This document shows, one piece after another, positions 33,247-40,656 of a DNA stretch of 64,000 nucleotides. This DNA comes from Bacillota bacterium (GTDB lineage: Bacteria; Armatimonadota; HRBIN16). The DNA is taken from assembly GCA_023511455.1 (NCBI GenBank), contig JAIMBJ010000002.1, positions 186,001 to 250,000 on the forward strand. Direction: 5' to 3'. Made by a program: the position numbers and the translations under genes. Below the pieces are notes generated by a model that saw only the letters and a program-made list of their open reading frames with translations, had not been told where the DNA came from and searched no databases. The number at the start of each line of letters is the position of its first letter. Positions within the stretch are counted from its first letter, which is position 1.

Positions 33247-35235
33247 TCAGGCAGCGGGAGGCAGCAGCTCCACCCGGTTTCTGCCTCGCTGTTTCGCCAG
33301 ATACAGTGCCTGATCGGCGGCGGCAAGCAGGGTGCTCTTATCGGTGCCATGGGTGGGGTATTCTGCTACTCCCGCGCTGAAAGTTACATGGAGAATGGAC
33401 GAACCGTCTACGGTCTGGAAGGGATGCCTTTCTATCACTTCGCGCAACCGTTGCGCTACCGAAGTTGCCTGCGCCAGCGCGGCCTCAGGCAAAATCACCA
33501 AAAACTCTTCGCCTCCATACCGGAAGACCAGCTCGGTCTCACGCAGGTTTTCCACCAGCAATCGGCTGACCCCCTGAAGCACAAGGTCTCCCGTCGCGTG
33601 TCCCCAGGTGTCGTTGATTTGCTTGAAATGGTCTACGTCTGCCAGTATCAGGCTGAAACGTCTGTGATATCGTTGACTGCGGCTGATCTCCTCCTCCAGC
33701 CGAATGTCCATGTATCTGCGGTTGAACAGCCCGGTCAAACCATCCGTCAGCGCCAGTAGCCCTACCGAGCGGGTAAGCCGTGACATCTCGATGACCTGCG
33801 CAAAGTGGTTGGCAGCAGATACAAGCTGCTCCAGGTGATGCTCACGGAAATAACCCGGCGTGGTGTGTGCTGCCAGCAACACGGCTTCCGCCTGTCCACG
33901 CACCATCAGGGGTGCTCCGATCAGGCTGGCGAACACCCTTCTGGAAGCATATCCAATCAGCCTCGGTTCTGACGAGGTGTGCGGCAGATAGAGGGGTTGG
34001 GCTCGGCGAGCAATCCATCCCGCTATCCCCTCGTTCGCCTCCGGCGGCTGTTCCTCCATCAGGCGAATGGGTTCCCCTACCGAAGCAACCACCTGAAGAG
34101 TGCCTGTATCTGGATTGCGAAGATAGAGGGTGACGAATGGTGCGGATAGCAGGTCTGCCACCACAGACGTGAACTTTTTCGCGGCATCTTCTGTCGATGA
34201 GGAAACGGCAGACAGCCTGCCTATCTCGTAGAGAGCGCTCAGGGTCCGGTTTTCCTGCTGTAAGGTGCGCAGGTAGTGGGCGGTGCGAATGGCAAGGCAC
34301 ACGGTGTTTCGCATCTGTTGAAGGCGTTCCCGAACAAGGGCTTCATCGTTCACATCCTGCCAGCCGAAAAGCGCAATCGCTCCGACGAGCCCCTGCTCGT
34401 CATGCAGCACAGAGGTCAGCGTGTTCTCACCAAGCGACTGCACGGCGTGGTTGAGCCGCTCTCCCACATCCGACGGAGATAGTCTGGTCACCTGCGCGGA
34501 AGGAGAAAGAGCCACACTGGACAGCATGTCCTGCCTCGTGGTAGCGTGAGCCAGGCGCAAAGAAGATGTGTATTCGTCGAAAAGCCACAGCGCGCCCTCC
34601 GGCGCACCGGTGGCATCTCGCAGGATAAACAGTATTTGACGCGCAAAGTCGTCGAGCTCTTTCGTGGTGACGGCGGTTTGAAGGACTTGCAGGCGCGCAC
34701 GGTCCAGCTGGTGCCGTGCCATCTGCTGCCGATGGGCGCCAACCAGTTCCTGATACTGATACCTCAGCTGGCGGTGTGCCTCCCGCTCCTGCTCCCATTG
34801 CTCGCGCAACGCATCGGGTAAAGGCAGCATCAGGTCGCTCTCTTCTTCATATGCGGTTCGTTCCGCCAGAGTGAATCCAAGATACAGCCACAGCATCCCA
34901 AACAGCACTGCCCACCACACAAAGAGGTTGTCCGCCCGCCAGGCATAGATGAAAGGAGCCGGGATCAAGAGAAAAGCCAACGAACGCGCGTAACCCCGGT
35001 GCACGGCGATGACCCAGGCGCTGAGCGGTAACCACATGGGGGAATAGACCTGCAGGACAGACGCCGCCACAACATCCAGAAATGCTGCCAGCCTGCTTTG
35101 CGGCTTCACCGCCACAAGCAGCAATACCCCTCCTGCCACGCCAGTAAAGAGCTGTTGCGCAGGCGTGGCATACCAGCTCGACGCCAGTACCGCCAGCGCG
35201 AGCATCAAACGCACAGCCAGTTGAGAGATGTTCAT
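33247..35235 (-). CDS. Membrane-bound GAF-GGDEF diguanylate cyclase
   Basis: 662 residues from the ATG at 35235, which overlaps the ftcD stop (ATGA). Several membrane helices (about 5-125) are followed by a short coiled coil (about 145-185), a first GAF domain (about 190-310), a second GAF domain (about 340-480) and a C-terminal GGDEF domain (about 495-660). The active site is FRYGGEEFLVILPEA, so it should make cyclic di-GMP. The expected ADVDHFKQINDTWGH substrate site is intact. I did not see a clear RxxD inhibitory site. The HD-GYP protein at 28769 could be its antagonist. Confidence 0.9.
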   Translation of the reverse strand: MNISQLAVRLMLALAVLASSWYATPAQQLFTGVAGGVLLLVAVKPQSRLAAFLDVVAASVLQVYSPMWLPLSAWVIAVHRGYARSLAFLLIPAPFIYAWRADNLFVWWAVLFGMLWLYLGFTLAERTAYEEESDLMLPLPDALREQWEQEREAHRQLRYQYQELVGAHRQQMARHQLDRARLQVLQTAVTTKELDDFARQILFILRDATGAPEGALWLFDEYTSSLRLAHATTRQDMLSSVALSPSAQVTRLSPSDVGERLNHAVQSLGENTLTSVLHDEQGLVGAIALFGWQDVNDEALVRERLQQMRNTVCLAIRTAHYLRTLQQENRTLSALYEIGRLSAVSSSTEDAAKKFTSVVADLLSAPFVTLYLRNPDTGTLQVVASVGEPIRLMEEQPPEANEGIAGWIARRAQPLYLPHTSSEPRLIGYASRRVFASLIGAPLMVRGQAEAVLLAAHTTPGYFREHHLEQLVSAANHFAQVIEMSRLTRSVGLLALTDGLTGLFNRRYMDIRLEEEISRSQRYHRRFSLILADVDHFKQINDTWGHATGDLVLQGVSRLLVENLRETELVFRYGGEEFLVILPEAALAQATSVAQRLREVIERHPFQTVDGSSILHVTFSAGVAEYPTHGTDKSTLLAAADQALYLAKQRGRNRVELLPPAA

Positions 35236-36149
35236 GGGTTCCATTCAGGGTCCAGCCAGAGGTCCAGAATATGCTCCTCGTTGAGCGCAGGGTTCTGCAG
35301 GCAGTGAGCTGCCACTCCGGCGATTGCAGACGCCGGTGCAACGCCTATCAGCTCCGTTTCCATGACCCGCGCACCTTGCTCGTCTGCCAGCCTCCGTACA
35401 TAATCCAGCACCCACCATAACGGGCTCTGTTCAGGCTGTGTGAGATTCAACGATACCTGCGCAACGCCTCGCGAAGCGAGAAACAACCCCAGTGCCCGCA
35501 CTCCCGCCAGCTGGGGAATGCGCTCACGTTCATGGCGGATGGTGCGTGCGATGTGCTGTGCTACCTCTACACGGTCGGTGTTGAGGTTAATGTTGAACGC
35601 AATCAGAGGTCCGCGCGCGCCCACGATTGCCGCTCCCGCTGTGGGGTGCAGGAACGCGGGACCTGCATCCGGTGCACGGTCGCCGGTCAGCGCGCGCCCT
35701 GCCCATCTTTCGAACCCCCCGCGACGGATGGTCGGCAGGTCCGCAGGTCTGCCGGGCAATGCGGCGTGTTCGTAGAAATACACCGGTACCTGCAGGTCGT
35801 TTGCAATGCGGTATCCCGTTTCACGGGCGATGTGCGCACAGTCCGACATCGGCACGTTTCGGAGTGGGATAAAGGGCATCACGTCTATCGCACCGATGCG
35901 GGGGTGCACCCCCTGATGAGAACGCAGGTCGATACGCTCTACGGCTACCTGTGCACAGCGAAAAGCGGCTTCTGCGACTGCGTCTGGCTCGCCCAAAAAG
36001 GTCAGCACCGTGCGATGATGGTCGGGGTCTGCCGATACATTCACCAGCCGAACGCCGGGCACTTCACGTACCGCCTGTGTCAGCGCATGGATGGTATCAC
36101 CGTTGCGCCCTTCGCTGAAATTGGGCACACATTCGATCACCCGTCGCAT
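35232..36149 (-). CDS. ftcD: Glutamate formimidoyltransferase
   Basis: Moves the formimino group from formiminoglutamate to tetrahydrofolate, in histidine degradation or one-carbon supply. 305 residues, the length of the stand-alone transferase, lacking the cyclodeaminase domain of the bifunctional form. The start MRRVIECVPNFSEGRN and SADPDHHRTVLTFLG (active-site histidines), HPRIGAIDVMPFIPL and ARGPLIAFNINLNT are typical. No other hut genes are nearby. Translationally coupled to the GGDEF gene. Confidence 0.93.
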   Translation of the reverse strand: MRRVIECVPNFSEGRNGDTIHALTQAVREVPGVRLVNVSADPDHHRTVLTFLGEPDAVAEAAFRCAQVAVERIDLRSHQGVHPRIGAIDVMPFIPLRNVPMSDCAHIARETGYRIANDLQVPVYFYEHAALPGRPADLPTIRRGGFERWAGRALTGDRAPDAGPAFLHPTAGAAIVGARGPLIAFNINLNTDRVEVAQHIARTIRHERERIPQLAGVRALGLFLASRGVAQVSLNLTQPEQSPLWWVLDYVRRLADEQGARVMETELIGVAPASAIAGVAAHCLQNPALNEEHILDLWLDPEWNP

Positions 36150-36301: not shown

Positions 36302-36330
36302 TTGACGTTTGCGCAAGGTCGTGGTATAGT
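36302..36330 (+). promoter_or_regulatory. Sigma-70 promoter of the first SLH-porin gene
   Basis: TTGACG (36302-36307), exactly 17 bases, TATAGT (36325-36330). Transcription should start near 36337, giving a 225-base structured leader. The bases between the ftcD start and this promoter (36150-36301) show nothing else I can support. Confidence 0.8.
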
Positions 36331-36336
36331 AGTAGT

Positions 36337-36540
36337 GAACTCGGTAAGGCATTTCCACCGCGAAAGCGGTGAATGCATATCGGGGCACTCTCTGAGAAGA
36401 ACAGAGGATCGCCTGAGGCGATAGGGAGGCGTGCGCTGGAGGTAACCCTGGAGGCTCCGCGAAGCGAACTCCCCCAGCCGAAAGGCAACCCTCTCTGTTC
36501 CGGGAAGTGAGTGCTCCGAAAGGCACGTTACACTTCCATT
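36337..36540 (+). promoter_or_regulatory. Highly structured RNA leader, candidate riboswitch or regulatory RNA
   Basis: The leader folds into nested helices. P1 is GCATT plus CACCGC (36349-36361) with GCGGTG plus AATGC (36366-36376), GAAA loop. A closing helix pairs CGGGGCACTC (36381-36390) with GAGTGCTCCG (36509-36518). Inside it GAACAGAG (36399-36406) pairs with CTCTGTTC (36493-36500). Within that are ATCGCC/GGCGAT (36408-36422), GCTGG/CCAGC (36435-36439 and 36474-36478), and GGAG/CTCC (36450-36453 and 36469-36472). A last hairpin GGAAGTG/CACTTCC (36503-36509 and 36531-36537) competes with the closing helix and ends about 10 bases before the ribosome site. It does not match the riboswitch consensus sequences I know. 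Confidence 0.6.
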
Positions 36541-36562
36541 AAGGAACAAGGAGGAGGGTACG

Positions 36563-38488
36563 ATGAAACGTCTGTTGATCGGCTTGGGTGTCGCCATCGC
36601 GATTACCTTCGCTGGCAACGCCTGGGCACAGGTGCCTCCCGATGTTCCACCCGGGCACTGGGCTTACGACGCCATCGAGGAGCTGTTTGACCTCGGTGTG
36701 CTGAAGGGCTACCCGGATGGGACGTTTAAGGGCAAGGTGCCGCTGACCCGCTACGAGTTCGCCATCGCTATCCGTGATGCGCTCGCAGCGATTCGTCAGC
36801 AGATCGATGAAGTGCGGGCACAGATCCCGAGGGGTCAGCCCACGCAGCCTTCTCAGCCAACTCCGCCCACGCAGCCCGGTATCACTGCGGAGGAGCGCGC
36901 CAAGCTGCAGGCTATCCCGGCAGATACCGCGCAGAGGCTGCAGAGGCTGGAGGAAGCAATCGCCCGCATCAACCGCCTCGCCACGGAGTTCCAGGATGAG
37001 ATGGCTTCGCTGGGCGTGGATGTGGAATCCGCCAAGCGCGACCTCGCCAACCTCCGCAGGCGTGTGGAGGCGATCGAGGAAGAGATGAAGCGCTTCCGCA
37101 TCACGGGTGATGTGACCTTCGTGGTGCGTGGCACCAACAGCATCGACGACCGCACTGCCATCGACCTGAACGCTCAGCCGACCGCACCTGGTGGCTTGCT
37201 GGGCAACATCGACGTGCTGCATGAGCTCGGGCTGAACATCAGCAGCAAGCTCAGCGACACCGCTTCCGCCGATGTGAGCCTGGTGGTCGGCAACTGGCTG
37301 CCCTACCTCGGTTCGGCATCGCAGTTCGGTGCCCGACCGGCAGCGACCAACACCGACATCGTGCTGTGGAAAGCCGCGGTCAACGCGCCGATTAGCGTGT
37401 TCGGCACCGAGGTCAACCTGACCATCGGTCGCTTCGAGAACCGCACCCACCCGTTGACCCTGTGGCGACCCGATGTGGATGTCTACACCACCATCGACCG
37501 CTACGACAACGGCTACTACAGCATGGACGGTGCCAAAGCGACCATCGGCATCGGCTCGGTGCAAATCGGGCTGTTTGCCGCCCGCAACAGCAACGTGAAC
37601 ACCAACAACGGCACGAACTTCATGTCGCTGAACGGCGGCATCGGCGCCACCCCGAACATTGCCGCAGCTCACCCAACTACCGGCACGGTAGCGGGCATCG
37701 GCGCGTTTGATAACAGCGCAGGTGCCACCCTGGAAGTAAACCTCGGCGAGAAGGTGAGCCTGAGCGCTGAAGTGATTACCGCCAAGCGGGGTACCACCAA
37801 TGTGGCTCCGTTCGGCAACGTGAACCGCCTGAACGTCTACGGTGGTCACCTGAAGGCGAACCTGATCGACCGACTGACCATCACCGCCGACTACGCCCAG
37901 AGCGACCTGCTGCTGCAGGAAGACAACGTCAACAACAAGGACAACTGGGCGTTGCTGGTGGGTGTTGGCTACACCTTCAGCGAGAACCTGTCGCTGAGCG
38001 CAGGCTATCGCGAGGTGCGCCCGTACTTCGCCGCCCCCGGCTACTGGGGCCGCATCGGTTACTGGCACAACCCGACCGACATCAAAGGCGCGGATGTCGC
38101 GCTGGCGTGGAAGCTGGGTGCGTTCGCCATCGATGCGAAGGGTGGCTTCTACAAGGGTAGCGACCGCCCGGCGAGCTTCGTCGGCAAGGATGACGAGATT
38201 ACTCACATCGCCGCCGGCGTGCTGTGGAACGCCAGCGAGAAGCTGAACCTGAACGTCTCTTACGAGGGCGTTCTGTGGAACCTCAAGACCTCCGCAGCCG
38301 GCGCGAAGCCGACGGAGAACTACGTCACGCTGGGCGTGGACTACAAGGTGAGCGACAACGCGCTGCTCAAACTGCTCTACCAGGTCGTGGACTTCAACGC
38401 CAAGGGTGTCGCCGCATGGCGCGTGATCCCCGGCGACGACAAAGCCCGCGCTGGTGTGGCAGTGGCCCAGTTCAGCGTGAAGTTCTAA
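36563..38488 (+). CDS. SLH-domain outer-membrane porin (OprB-like), copy 1
   Basis: 641 residues: signal peptide (about 1-23), one S-layer-homology domain (about 26-78, GHWAYDAIEELFDLGVLKGY, TRYEFAIAIRDAL), a Pro/Gln linker, a coiled coil (about 110-180) and a beta-barrel-like C-terminal region ending in phenylalanine (QFSVKF). SLH domains bind pyruvylated or secondary wall polymers on peptidoglycan, so the protein would tether the outer membrane to the wall while forming a pore. The ribosome site AAGGAGGAGGG is very strong and the leader is structured, which together suggest high, regulated expression. Confidence 0.9.
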   Translation: MKRLLIGLGVAIAITFAGNAWAQVPPDVPPGHWAYDAIEELFDLGVLKGYPDGTFKGKVPLTRYEFAIAIRDALAAIRQQIDEVRAQIPRGQPTQPSQPTPPTQPGITAEERAKLQAIPADTAQRLQRLEEAIARINRLATEFQDEMASLGVDVESAKRDLANLRRRVEAIEEEMKRFRITGDVTFVVRGTNSIDDRTAIDLNAQPTAPGGLLGNIDVLHELGLNISSKLSDTASADVSLVVGNWLPYLGSASQFGARPAATNTDIVLWKAAVNAPISVFGTEVNLTIGRFENRTHPLTLWRPDVDVYTTIDRYDNGYYSMDGAKATIGIGSVQIGLFAARNSNVNTNNGTNFMSLNGGIGATPNIAAAHPTTGTVAGIGAFDNSAGATLEVNLGEKVSLSAEVITAKRGTTNVAPFGNVNRLNVYGGHLKANLIDRLTITADYAQSDLLLQEDNVNNKDNWALLVGVGYTFSENLSLSAGYREVRPYFAAPGYWGRIGYWHNPTDIKGADVALAWKLGAFAIDAKGGFYKGSDRPASFVGKDDEITHIAAGVLWNASEKLNLNVSYEGVLWNLKTSAAGAKPTENYVTLGVDYKVSDNALLKLLYQVVDFNAKGVAAWRVIPGDDKARAGVAVAQFSVKF

Positions 38489-38505
38489 CCTGAAACCGCG
38501 CAGTC

Positions 38506-38537
38506 AACCCCCTCCGGCAAGCCGGAGGGGGTTTTCG
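38506..38537 (+). terminator. Intrinsic terminator between the two porin genes
   Basis: AACCCCCTCCGG (38506-38517) pairs with CCGGAGGGGGTT (38522-38533) across CAAG, followed by TTCGTTT. A 12-bp GC-rich stem that should end the first porin transcript. Confidence 0.88.
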
Positions 38538-38603
38538 TTTGGTATGCCCTGTGAGGACGCGATGCTCCCAAAGGGAAACGCTGTGCCAGACTGCTAACCC
38601 GAA

Positions 38604-38624
38604 AACGCAGGACTTCCCTGCGTT
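38604..38624 (+). promoter_or_regulatory. Hairpin in the leader of the second porin gene
   Basis: AACGCAGG (38604-38611) pairs with CCTGCGTT (38617-38624), five-base loop, with no T-run after it. It lies 52 bases before the second porin start. I saw no convincing promoter in 38540-38676, and this leader is not obviously the same RNA as at 36337. Confidence 0.5.
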
Positions 38625-38676
38625 CTGCCGAATCACTACTTCACCTTGATTCTTCACCAGGACAGGAGGTGCACTG

Positions 38677-40656
38677 ATGAATCGTCTGGTGCCGCCTGTG
38701 GTTTTTCTTGTCGTCCTGTGGACATGTGCGGTGGCTCTGGCTCAGCAGGACGTCCCGTCCGGGCACTGGGCATACGACGCCGTTCAATCTTTGATGCGGG
38801 AGGGCATTCTGAAGGGATACCCGGATGGCTCTTTTCGCGGTCAAAAGCCCGTTACGCGCTACGAGTTCGCCGTTGCCCTGCGCGATGCCCTTCAGGAAAT
38901 GAGAAACCGCGTCAATGCTTTGAGGGACGAATGGAGGCAGCGCATTCTGCTACCCCCTCCCCCTGTCATTACTCCGCCGCCTCCTGCCGTCGATGCTGTC
39001 GCCGTTGACGCCGACCGGGAGAAGCTGAAGCAGATTCCCGAGGATACGGCGCAGCGGTTGCTCAGGCTGGAGGAACAGATGCGCATCCTGAATCAGCTGC
39101 TGGAGGAGTTCGGACGCGATTTGCAGACCATCGGCGAGGACGTTCGCCGTCTGCGGAGGGAACTCTCCGGGGCACAGAGCCAGGTTCGCTCGCTGGAACA
39201 GCAGCTGCGCCAGCGTGTGCGGGTCAGCGGTACCGTCGACCTCGTCGGCCGAGGGGCGCACGGGATAGACCACAAGGGCTTTGTGGACCAGAACGGCTAT
39301 GCGTCCAGCGGCGGGCTGTTGAACAACGCCGAGGTGACCCATGAGCTGAACCTGCAGGTGTCTGCCGAGGTCGCCCCTGCCATCCGCGCGGAGGCAGCGC
39401 TTGTGGCAGGCAACTACCTCACTTACGTCCGCTCGGCGTCTCACTTTGCAAACGCCCCGCAACGCAGCCCGGGTGCCACCGACTTCCTGCTGTGGAAAGC
39501 AGGGATACGCGTGCCGGTAAGCCTGTTTGGCAGGCAGGGTAGCCTGTTGGTGGGCAGGATAGAGAACCGAATGACCCCTTTAACCCTGTGGAGGCCGGAT
39601 GTCGATGTGTATACCCTGCTCCCGCGCTATGATGGCGGTTATTACAGCATGGACGGGCTGAAGTTCCGGCTGGACACCGATTTGGTGAGCATCATGCTCT
39701 ACGCTGCCGAACACGATACGGTGAACACCAACCTCCTGCCCGACTTCATGCGCGTCTCTGCTGGCAACGACGCAGTCAACCTCTTCCAGCCCGGTAACCC
39801 CCTGCGCCAGCGTCCCAACCGCATTCCCTACGGCATCGTCCATGCCCGGCACAGCGCAGGGGCCTCCGCAACGGTGCGGCTGGGAAATACCGTCGCTGTA
39901 GGGGCACAGTTTCTCACCATCGACGCTGGACGAGACATTCCGACCGCCTTCGGCGCGGTCAATGGGGTGAATGTATGGGGGTGGCAGGCAGAGTACAAAC
40001 CCTCCGACCGGTGGCAGTTCGCCGCCGTCTATTCGCAGAGTGACCTCGTGCATCATGGCGATACCCGTCTGAACCGCGATAACTGGGCGTTTTCCGCAAG
40101 AGTGCAATACAGTCCAGATGAAACGACTTCCTTGTGGCTGGGATACCGCGATTTTCGCCCCTACTTTGCACCCCCTGGCTACTGGGGGCGTATCGGCTAC
40201 TGGCATAACCCCACCGACCTGCGCGGCATCGACGCGGGCTACAGAGCCCGCATCGGCAGCGTGGCAGTAGATGCACGCGGAGGCTTTTACTCCGGCACCG
40301 GTAAAGCCGCGCCTCCTGCAGGTTTCGGCAGCGACGACGGGGTGGTGCACCTCGCGCTCAACGCGCAATGGCGGGCTCGTCCCCGCTGGCGGATTGGGCT
40401 GAGTTATGAGGGTGCATTCTGGAACCTGAAGGATGTACAGCGTTTCAACCCCGCTGCAGGATTGTCTGCACCAGGCAAGCCAAGGGAGCACTACGCCACA
40501 CTGAGCCTGTGGTACGACCTCAGTGAGGATACCGTTCTGCGCGCGTTGTATCAGTCGGTTTTTTATGACGCCGCCGGCGTAACCTCCTACTCCCTGCTGG
40601 GTAGCAATAAAGAGCACGGCGGCGTGGCTGTTATCCAGCTCAGCACGGCATTTTGA
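38677..40656 (+). CDS. SLH-domain outer-membrane porin (OprB-like), copy 2
   Basis: 659 residues and clearly paralogous to copy 1: signal peptide (about 1-22), SLH domain (GHWAYDAVQSLMREGILKGY), Pro-rich linker, coiled coil (about 105-180), then a beta barrel with shared landmarks (LTLWRPDVDVYT, GGYYSMDGLKF, RPYFAPPGYWGRIGYWHNPTD) and a C-terminal phenylalanine. The SLH domain and barrel core are conserved, while the linker and loops differ. It has its own AGGAGGTG ribosome site and is separated from copy 1 by a terminator, so the two may be expressed under different conditions. Confidence 0.9.
   Translation: MNRLVPPVVFLVVLWTCAVALAQQDVPSGHWAYDAVQSLMREGILKGYPDGSFRGQKPVTRYEFAVALRDALQEMRNRVNALRDEWRQRILLPPPPVITPPPPAVDAVAVDADREKLKQIPEDTAQRLLRLEEQMRILNQLLEEFGRDLQTIGEDVRRLRRELSGAQSQVRSLEQQLRQRVRVSGTVDLVGRGAHGIDHKGFVDQNGYASSGGLLNNAEVTHELNLQVSAEVAPAIRAEAALVAGNYLTYVRSASHFANAPQRSPGATDFLLWKAGIRVPVSLFGRQGSLLVGRIENRMTPLTLWRPDVDVYTLLPRYDGGYYSMDGLKFRLDTDLVSIMLYAAEHDTVNTNLLPDFMRVSAGNDAVNLFQPGNPLRQRPNRIPYGIVHARHSAGASATVRLGNTVAVGAQFLTIDAGRDIPTAFGAVNGVNVWGWQAEYKPSDRWQFAAVYSQSDLVHHGDTRLNRDNWAFSARVQYSPDETTSLWLGYRDFRPYFAPPGYWGRIGYWHNPTDLRGIDAGYRARIGSVAVDARGGFYSGTGKAAPPAGFGSDDGVVHLALNAQWRARPRWRIGLSYEGAFWNLKDVQRFNPAAGLSAPGKPREHYATLSLWYDLSEDTVLRALYQSVFYDAAGVTSYSLLGSNKEHGGVAVIQLSTAF

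Follow-up and report, generated by a model that had tools for sequence, protein, structure and literature searches.

A Structured, Covarying Leader RNA Upstream of an SLH-Domain Porin Gene in Armatimonadota: A Candidate Translational Switch Around a Hairpin That Precedes Outer-Membrane Genes

Introduction

Abundant outer-membrane proteins are under post-transcriptional control in enterobacteria, as in the ompA 5′ UTR and the sRNA-controlled porin leaders, and in the Escherichia coli ompA leader 5′ hairpins protect the mRNA. The Thermus slpA mRNA, which encodes an S-layer/SLH protein of the outer envelope, likewise carries a long regulatory 5′ leader. In diderm Terrabacteria, OmpM-type SLH porins act as tethers between the outer membrane and the cell wall, and one proposal sees in them an ancestral tether (PMC10628300); the full text of that structural paper mentions neither UTRs nor riboswitches. 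The closest described RNA is the "SLH motif," a riboswitch candidate of unknown ligand known from 80 examples; these come from Synergistaceae, Clostridia, and Negativicutes and lie upstream of SLH-domain genes in about 60% of cases and before proteins of unknown function in ∼40% (Stav et al., 2019, BMC Microbiol, PMC6429828). Our literature search found nothing on leader control of OmpM-type genes besides this 2019 candidate (PMC6429828), and nothing on RNAs of this kind in Armatimonadota.

Here we analyze a leader RNA in a 64-kb stretch of DNA (hereafter the window) from the genome of a hot-spring Armatimonadota bacterium of an HRbin16-like genus, for which a preliminary description had proposed a riboswitch-like leader ahead of an SLH-porin gene.

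The Locus and Its Promoter

The good promoter claimed for this leader in the preliminary description is present on the + strand at 36302–36330 as a sigma-70-type element, TTGACG-17-TATAGT with a TG before the second hexamer, and it is kept in orthologous loci. Transcription is predicted to start at ∼36337, giving a structured 5′ leader RNA of ∼226 nt (36337–36562, + strand) ahead of the controlled gene (36563–38488, + strand). The latter encodes a 641-aa, OmpM-like SLH-domain outer-membrane porin, with a Pfam SLH match over residues 27–67 (2.4e-10) and a weak OMP beta-barrel match under the curated Pfam cut-off. Its Shine-Dalgarno (SD) region, GGAACAAGGAGGAGGGT (36543–36559, + strand), stands immediately 5′ of the ATG at 36563. 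Searched against its own genome, the leader DNA gave a single strong match. We looked for a + strand intrinsic terminator in the leader and found none, and a transcription attenuator was rejected for that reason.

Two neighboring genes were noted. A second SLH-domain outer-membrane protein gene (38677–40656) directly follows the first, and the interval 5′ of it (38490–38676) contains what looks like a terminator hairpin and, by reading, no version of the leader. An apparent GAF-GGDEF protein is encoded on the opposite strand one gene before the leader (33247–35244, − strand); from its translation, it may be a diguanylate cyclase, and its association with the leader is one of proximity only.

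Two Competing Folds of the Leader

The leader has a minimum free energy (MFE) of −97.1 kcal/mol (z = −5.06), and none of 200 dinucleotide shuffles folded as well. All of the helices described below lie on the + strand. State 1 opens with a 5′ hairpin, GCATTTCCACCGCGAAAGCGGTGAATGC (36349–36376), of 11 pairs with 100% of cells paired in the orthologue alignment. It is followed by a closing helix, P1, whose 5′ arm TCGGGGCACTC (36380–36390) pairs with 36509–36519; a 10-bp version of this helix (36381–36390 with 36509–36518) had been described, and the helix is real but has 11 pairs. The inner helix P2, GAACAGAG (36399–36406) with CTCTGTTC (36493–36500), was also recovered as described (83.8% of cells paired), except that its last pair, 36406:36493, is kept in just two of nine orthologues. 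Inside P2 lies a core domain (36424–36473) built from P3 (36424–36428/36469–36473), P4a (36430–36432/36464–36466), P4 (36434–36436/36459–36461), and P5 (36438–36441/36455–36458), and carrying a conserved hairpin loop, AGGTAACCCTGGAGGCT (36440–36456), which is the divergent genus version of a phylum-wide consensus, AGGNAACANGGNNACU, described below.

State 2 consists of a competing 3′ hairpin and a duplex over the SD. The 3′ hairpin, GGAAGTG...CACTTCC (36503–36537), pairs 36503–36509 with 36531–36537 and is extended by 36511–36515 with 36522–36526; because it overlaps the 3′ arm of P1 (36509–36519), the two exclude each other. The anti-SD strand ACCCTCTCTGTTCC (36488–36501) includes the 3′ arm of P2 and forms a 14-pair duplex with 36543–36559 in the MFE, so that the 5′ arm of P2 rivals the SD for it. 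In most orthologues the strand 36529–36537, TACACTTCC, is an alternative partner of the SD. Constrained folds put the cost of opening the SD at 6–12 kcal/mol. The arrangement expected of a riboswitch, mutually exclusive structures of which one engages the SD, is found in these leader folds.

Conservation in Orthologous Leaders

Nine orthologous leaders from the genus were aligned. State 1 was paired in 91.6% of cells, and both partners had changed in 12 of its pairs, where shuffles averaged 3.4; neither this count nor the covariation score was reached by any of 500 shuffles. Four of the changed pairs fall in P1, six in the core (P3–P5), and two in the 5′ hairpin. P2 contributes none to this count, owing to indels in two divergent leaders of the alignment; by reading of the leaders, L011 and L015 keep a rearranged P2 helix. 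The loop segments GAGGTAACC and GGCTCC are invariant in all nine.

State 2 was paired in 94% of cells and its anti-SD:SD duplex in 96.6%, both almost invariant in sequence. In several orthologues the state 1 MFE still pairs the SD with TACACTTCC, so that either of the two states may be the ON state.

The leader is a real folded RNA kept by compensatory mutations. The covariation check on orthologous leaders put forward in the preliminary description thus came out in favor of the fold, and two of its structural claims, a later hairpin that overlaps the closing helix and two mutually exclusive states, hold in that both states, one of them engaging the SD, are conserved among the orthologues. It had noted no match to c-di-GMP-I, TPP, cobalamin, or ydaO sequences; the window had no Rfam 15 match at the gathering score, and none at E ≤ 10 was found around the leader. 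Known riboswitches and other Rfam families were likewise rejected for the leaders of other Armatimonadota and of Negativicutes, where weak matches were implausible.

A Hairpin Common to Armatimonadota Outer-Membrane Genes

At the same place in the leaders of other Armatimonadota families, we found a hairpin with the consensus AGGNAACANGGNNACU (A-GG-N-A-A-C-A-N-GG-N-N-A-C-U) and a stem that varies in sequence and covaries (covariation score reached by 0/500 shuffles). A 29-nt covariance model, R1, was built from 19 leaders and run on 291 Armatimonadota genomes, 88 of which had a match at E ≤ 0.3; matches at E > 0.1 were mostly background inside reading frames. Among the best 30 loci, 27 precede an SLH-porin gene and one (L136) a predicted non-SLH outer-membrane protein; of the remaining two, one precedes neither and the other ends before any gene. 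Several of the SLH-porin matches are in genomes that were blank in a protein search at E ≤ 1e-30. Further matches precede other predicted outer-membrane proteins with signal peptides (L149, L152; L160, L161, L172; L174). The preliminary description had presented the structure as the leader of an SLH-porin gene, which it is in the window, but its most conserved part, a short hairpin, is not limited to such genes. R1 matches inside the genus (L162–L164) have no outer-membrane gene after them and look like chance.

Four of the loci with this hairpin leader (L160, L161, L172, L249) encode exported proteins of ∼235 aa that share the motif SGLIE(T/V)PDD. The family, tested on L160, had no Pfam match, and is possibly a family of small outer-membrane barrels.

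The hairpin is flanked by larger, family-specific domains with conserved sequence. In families f17, f38, f39, and f5, an extra 5′ domain is conserved around GAAAGGAGGTGA, ∼150 nt upstream of the real start (L085, L087, L101, L108, L110, L091, L095, L112, L173, and similar leaders). GAAAGGAGGTGA looks fully complementary to the 3′ end typical of 16S rRNA, and the domain may serve for ribosome standby or as a decoy SD. A leader peptide starting at the TTG after GAAAGGAGGTGA in f17-type leaders is unsupported, as L085 and L087 have lost this codon.

Placing the Hairpin of the Window

R1 gave 10.1 bits on the hairpin of the window, which is the 16th score in the window, within background and not significant. 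The link to the general hairpin runs instead through the sister family f31, in whose SLH-porin leaders P1, P3, P4, and P5 covary (0/500 shuffles for both covariation score and cells paired). The P1 3′ arm of f31, CATCCTTC, could also pair with the SD, GGAGGATG (98% of cells), and this complementarity is invariant. A second covariance model, R2, built from f31 leaders only, ranked 36423–36474 first among all positions on the two strands of the window with 13.6 bits; this is the predicted position, and the lead over the second match (13.2 bits) is small. The window loop, GGTAACCCTGGAGG, is the divergent form common to most of f31, and one f31 genome (G210, locus L071) has the general loop at the same position (R1, E = 0.033). 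Homology of the window hairpin to the general one is thus drawn from its homologous position, its architecture, and the f31 bridge, not from a significant score. On this positional and model evidence, we assign the core hairpin of the window to the family of hairpins that precede outer-membrane genes. Its divergent version was found, in the data read, in Armatimonadota only.

The Hairpin Outside the Phylum

Across twelve outgroup genomes, R1 matched before outer-membrane genes only in Negativicutes (Selenomonas and Succiniclasticum), ahead of tandem OmpM genes. When the search was extended to 201 Negativicutes genomes, 140 matched at E ≤ 0.1; in the top loci that could be read, the gene after the hairpin encodes OmpM, another porin, or an exported acid phosphatase. 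The phosphatase, of class B type, follows the hairpin in L201 (Pfam Acid_phosphat_B) and L197, which would make the regulon wider than beta-barrel porins. None of the loci outside the phylum, from Negativicutes or elsewhere, was in the R1 training set, and the stem covaries strongly among them (almost all are from Negativicutes; one row, L229, is cyanobacterial).

Background rates of R1 were 3 of 146 genomes in cyanobacteria and 5 of 148 in Bacteroidota, and none of the five Bacteroidota matches precedes an outer-membrane gene. The best and only good cyanobacterial match, CGGGAGGAAACTTGGACACTCCTG (L229, genome G553, in the phylum of Phormidium), stands 94 nt ahead of the start of an SLH-porin gene.

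A Strand Shared Between the 5′ Region and the SD

For each leader, we took a 10-nt segment lying between the hairpin and the SD, scored how well it can pair with the region 5′ of the hairpin and also with the SD, and compared the result with shuffled versions of the segment. Each of the eight Armatimonadota families gave a negative mean z-score (−0.8 to −3.2; average of the family means, −1.59), the genus of the window being the weakest (−0.79), and the 21 Negativicutes leaders averaged −1.45 ± 0.31; as leaders share ancestry within a clade, these z-scores are not independent. Complementarity of SD and anti-SD alone was clearly above composition only in some families (f17, f38/39). In f31 it was not, in the genus it shows no covariation, and SD masking as a simple universal feature was rejected on the f31 result; the shared-strand version is better supported. 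That one strand can pair with either a 5′ strand or the SD in most families suggests, from sequence, a translational switch.

Discussion

We propose with moderate confidence, from predicted folds and comparative sequence, that the leader of the main outer-membrane tether/porin mRNA acts as a cis-acting translational switch. The conserved hairpin sits inside the helix that would compete for the anti-SD strand. With the core folded, a 5′ strand mimicking the SD would hold the anti-SD strand; if nothing holds the core, the anti-SD strand would pair with the SD and ribosome entry would be blocked. In this genus, the choice between P1 and the 3′ hairpin would add a second layer of control over the SD. 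Recognition of the loop by a factor, be it a metabolite related to the envelope or an RNA-binding protein, could shift the balance and so adjust porin synthesis to envelope conditions.

The nature of that factor divides the leading explanations. The first, a serious candidate to which we give somewhat less than an even chance, is a protein-binding operator: an RNA-binding protein, or the porin precursor, would bind the loop and repress or stabilize outer-membrane mRNAs as a regulon, and the flanking helices would be family-specific plumbing. The combination of an invariant loop with a freely covarying stem in a small hairpin is typical of a protein site, and the occurrence of the hairpin before several unrelated outer-membrane genes, not one pathway, fits a regulon. 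On the other side, CsrA is absent from 12 of the 40 R1-positive genomes tested outside the phylum and from several near-complete, hairpin-bearing Armatimonadota genomes, and Hfq from some of the latter; given this distribution we rejected CsrA and Hfq as universal readers, a role that is unlikely for either.

Rather unlikely, in our estimate, is direct binding of a second messenger or a small envelope-related metabolite to the leader RNA, the reading offered for SLH-gene leaders by Stav et al. (2019; PMC6429828). The larger conserved, family-specific domains around the hairpin would suit such a metabolite riboswitch, as would mutually exclusive states that reach the SD, but the part common to the phyla amounts to ∼16 loop-proximal nucleotides, which is small for an aptamer. 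The riboswitch reading of the preliminary description stands insofar as this is a structured, covarying, two-state cis-leader, and its novelty is reduced by the 2019 "SLH motif" (PMC6429828). The short hairpin that is its most conserved part could be read by a protein just as by a metabolite.

We consider it improbable that the structure merely stabilizes the message, with 5′ hairpins protecting a very abundant porin mRNA and no switch. The strong folding and a 5′-terminal hairpin near the predicted transcription start agree with such a role, which nevertheless has no need for an invariant 12-nt loop common to the phyla or for strands used by both the 5′ helix and the SD. A direct response to temperature, as an RNA thermometer or cold-shock-like leader, is very improbable: the window MFE does sequester the SD in a long duplex and there are hot-spring isolates among the related genomes, yet the hairpin also occurs in Negativicutes, including mesophilic gut and oral species, a conserved loop would be unneeded, and such a folding free energy is very high for a structure that has to melt. 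Least probable of all, by a little, is a CsrA-binding hairpin, for although the loop carries GG(A) as CsrA/RsmA-binding hairpins do, with ACANGGA (which resembles the CsrA consensus) common among the members, and this genome encodes CsrA, here the GGA is not invariant (the third position is A, T, or C, with GGT/GGC variants), the hairpin persists in genomes without CsrA, and the site lies 60–180 nt upstream of the start with no overlap of the SD, so that neither the invariant GGA nor the co-occurrence with CsrA expected of a target was found.

Returning to the translational switch, we tentatively extend it to an evolutionary proposal that is plausible to us but on balance doubtful. The AGGNAACANGGNNACU hairpin would be an ancient regulatory element of outer-membrane mRNAs in diderm Terrabacteria, among them Armatimonadota, Negativicutes, and at least one cyanobacterium, read by a conserved factor and setting the synthesis of OmpM and other porins, and the window leader would be an elaborated, two-layer switch around it. 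A common RNA element across phyla would point to shared post-transcriptional control of outer-membrane proteins outside Proteobacteria, and the element can be tested in cultivable Negativicutes.

Compared with described systems, the window leader differs from the ompA and sRNA-controlled porin leaders in sequence and lineage, and R1 matches in Bacteroidota, our Gracilicutes control, were at background. It is like the Thermus slpA leader in being a long leader of an SLH outer-envelope protein. The SLH motif is nearest. It too is a structured RNA upstream of SLH-domain protein genes, as in the window (Pfam SLH, 2.4e-10) and at most of the R1 matches read in the two phyla, and it was reported in Negativicutes, where the general hairpin abounds before OmpM genes (140/201 genomes). 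Unlike the hairpin described here, it was not reported in Armatimonadota or cyanobacteria (PMC6429828), and our hairpin also precedes other outer-membrane genes and has, in its genus version, extra helices. The SLH motif consensus is given as a figure only (Fig. 3e) and is not in Rfam 15, and from its description and gene context, rather than its sequence, we judge that our hairpin RNA is very probably of the same kind and likely identical with it. The new elements are the reach of this candidate class into Armatimonadota and to outer-membrane genes of other kinds, the definition of a core hairpin, and the elaborated two-state leader of the window; the lead opened by the SLH motif in 2019 thus probably reaches Armatimonadota and outer-membrane proteins beyond those with SLH domains.
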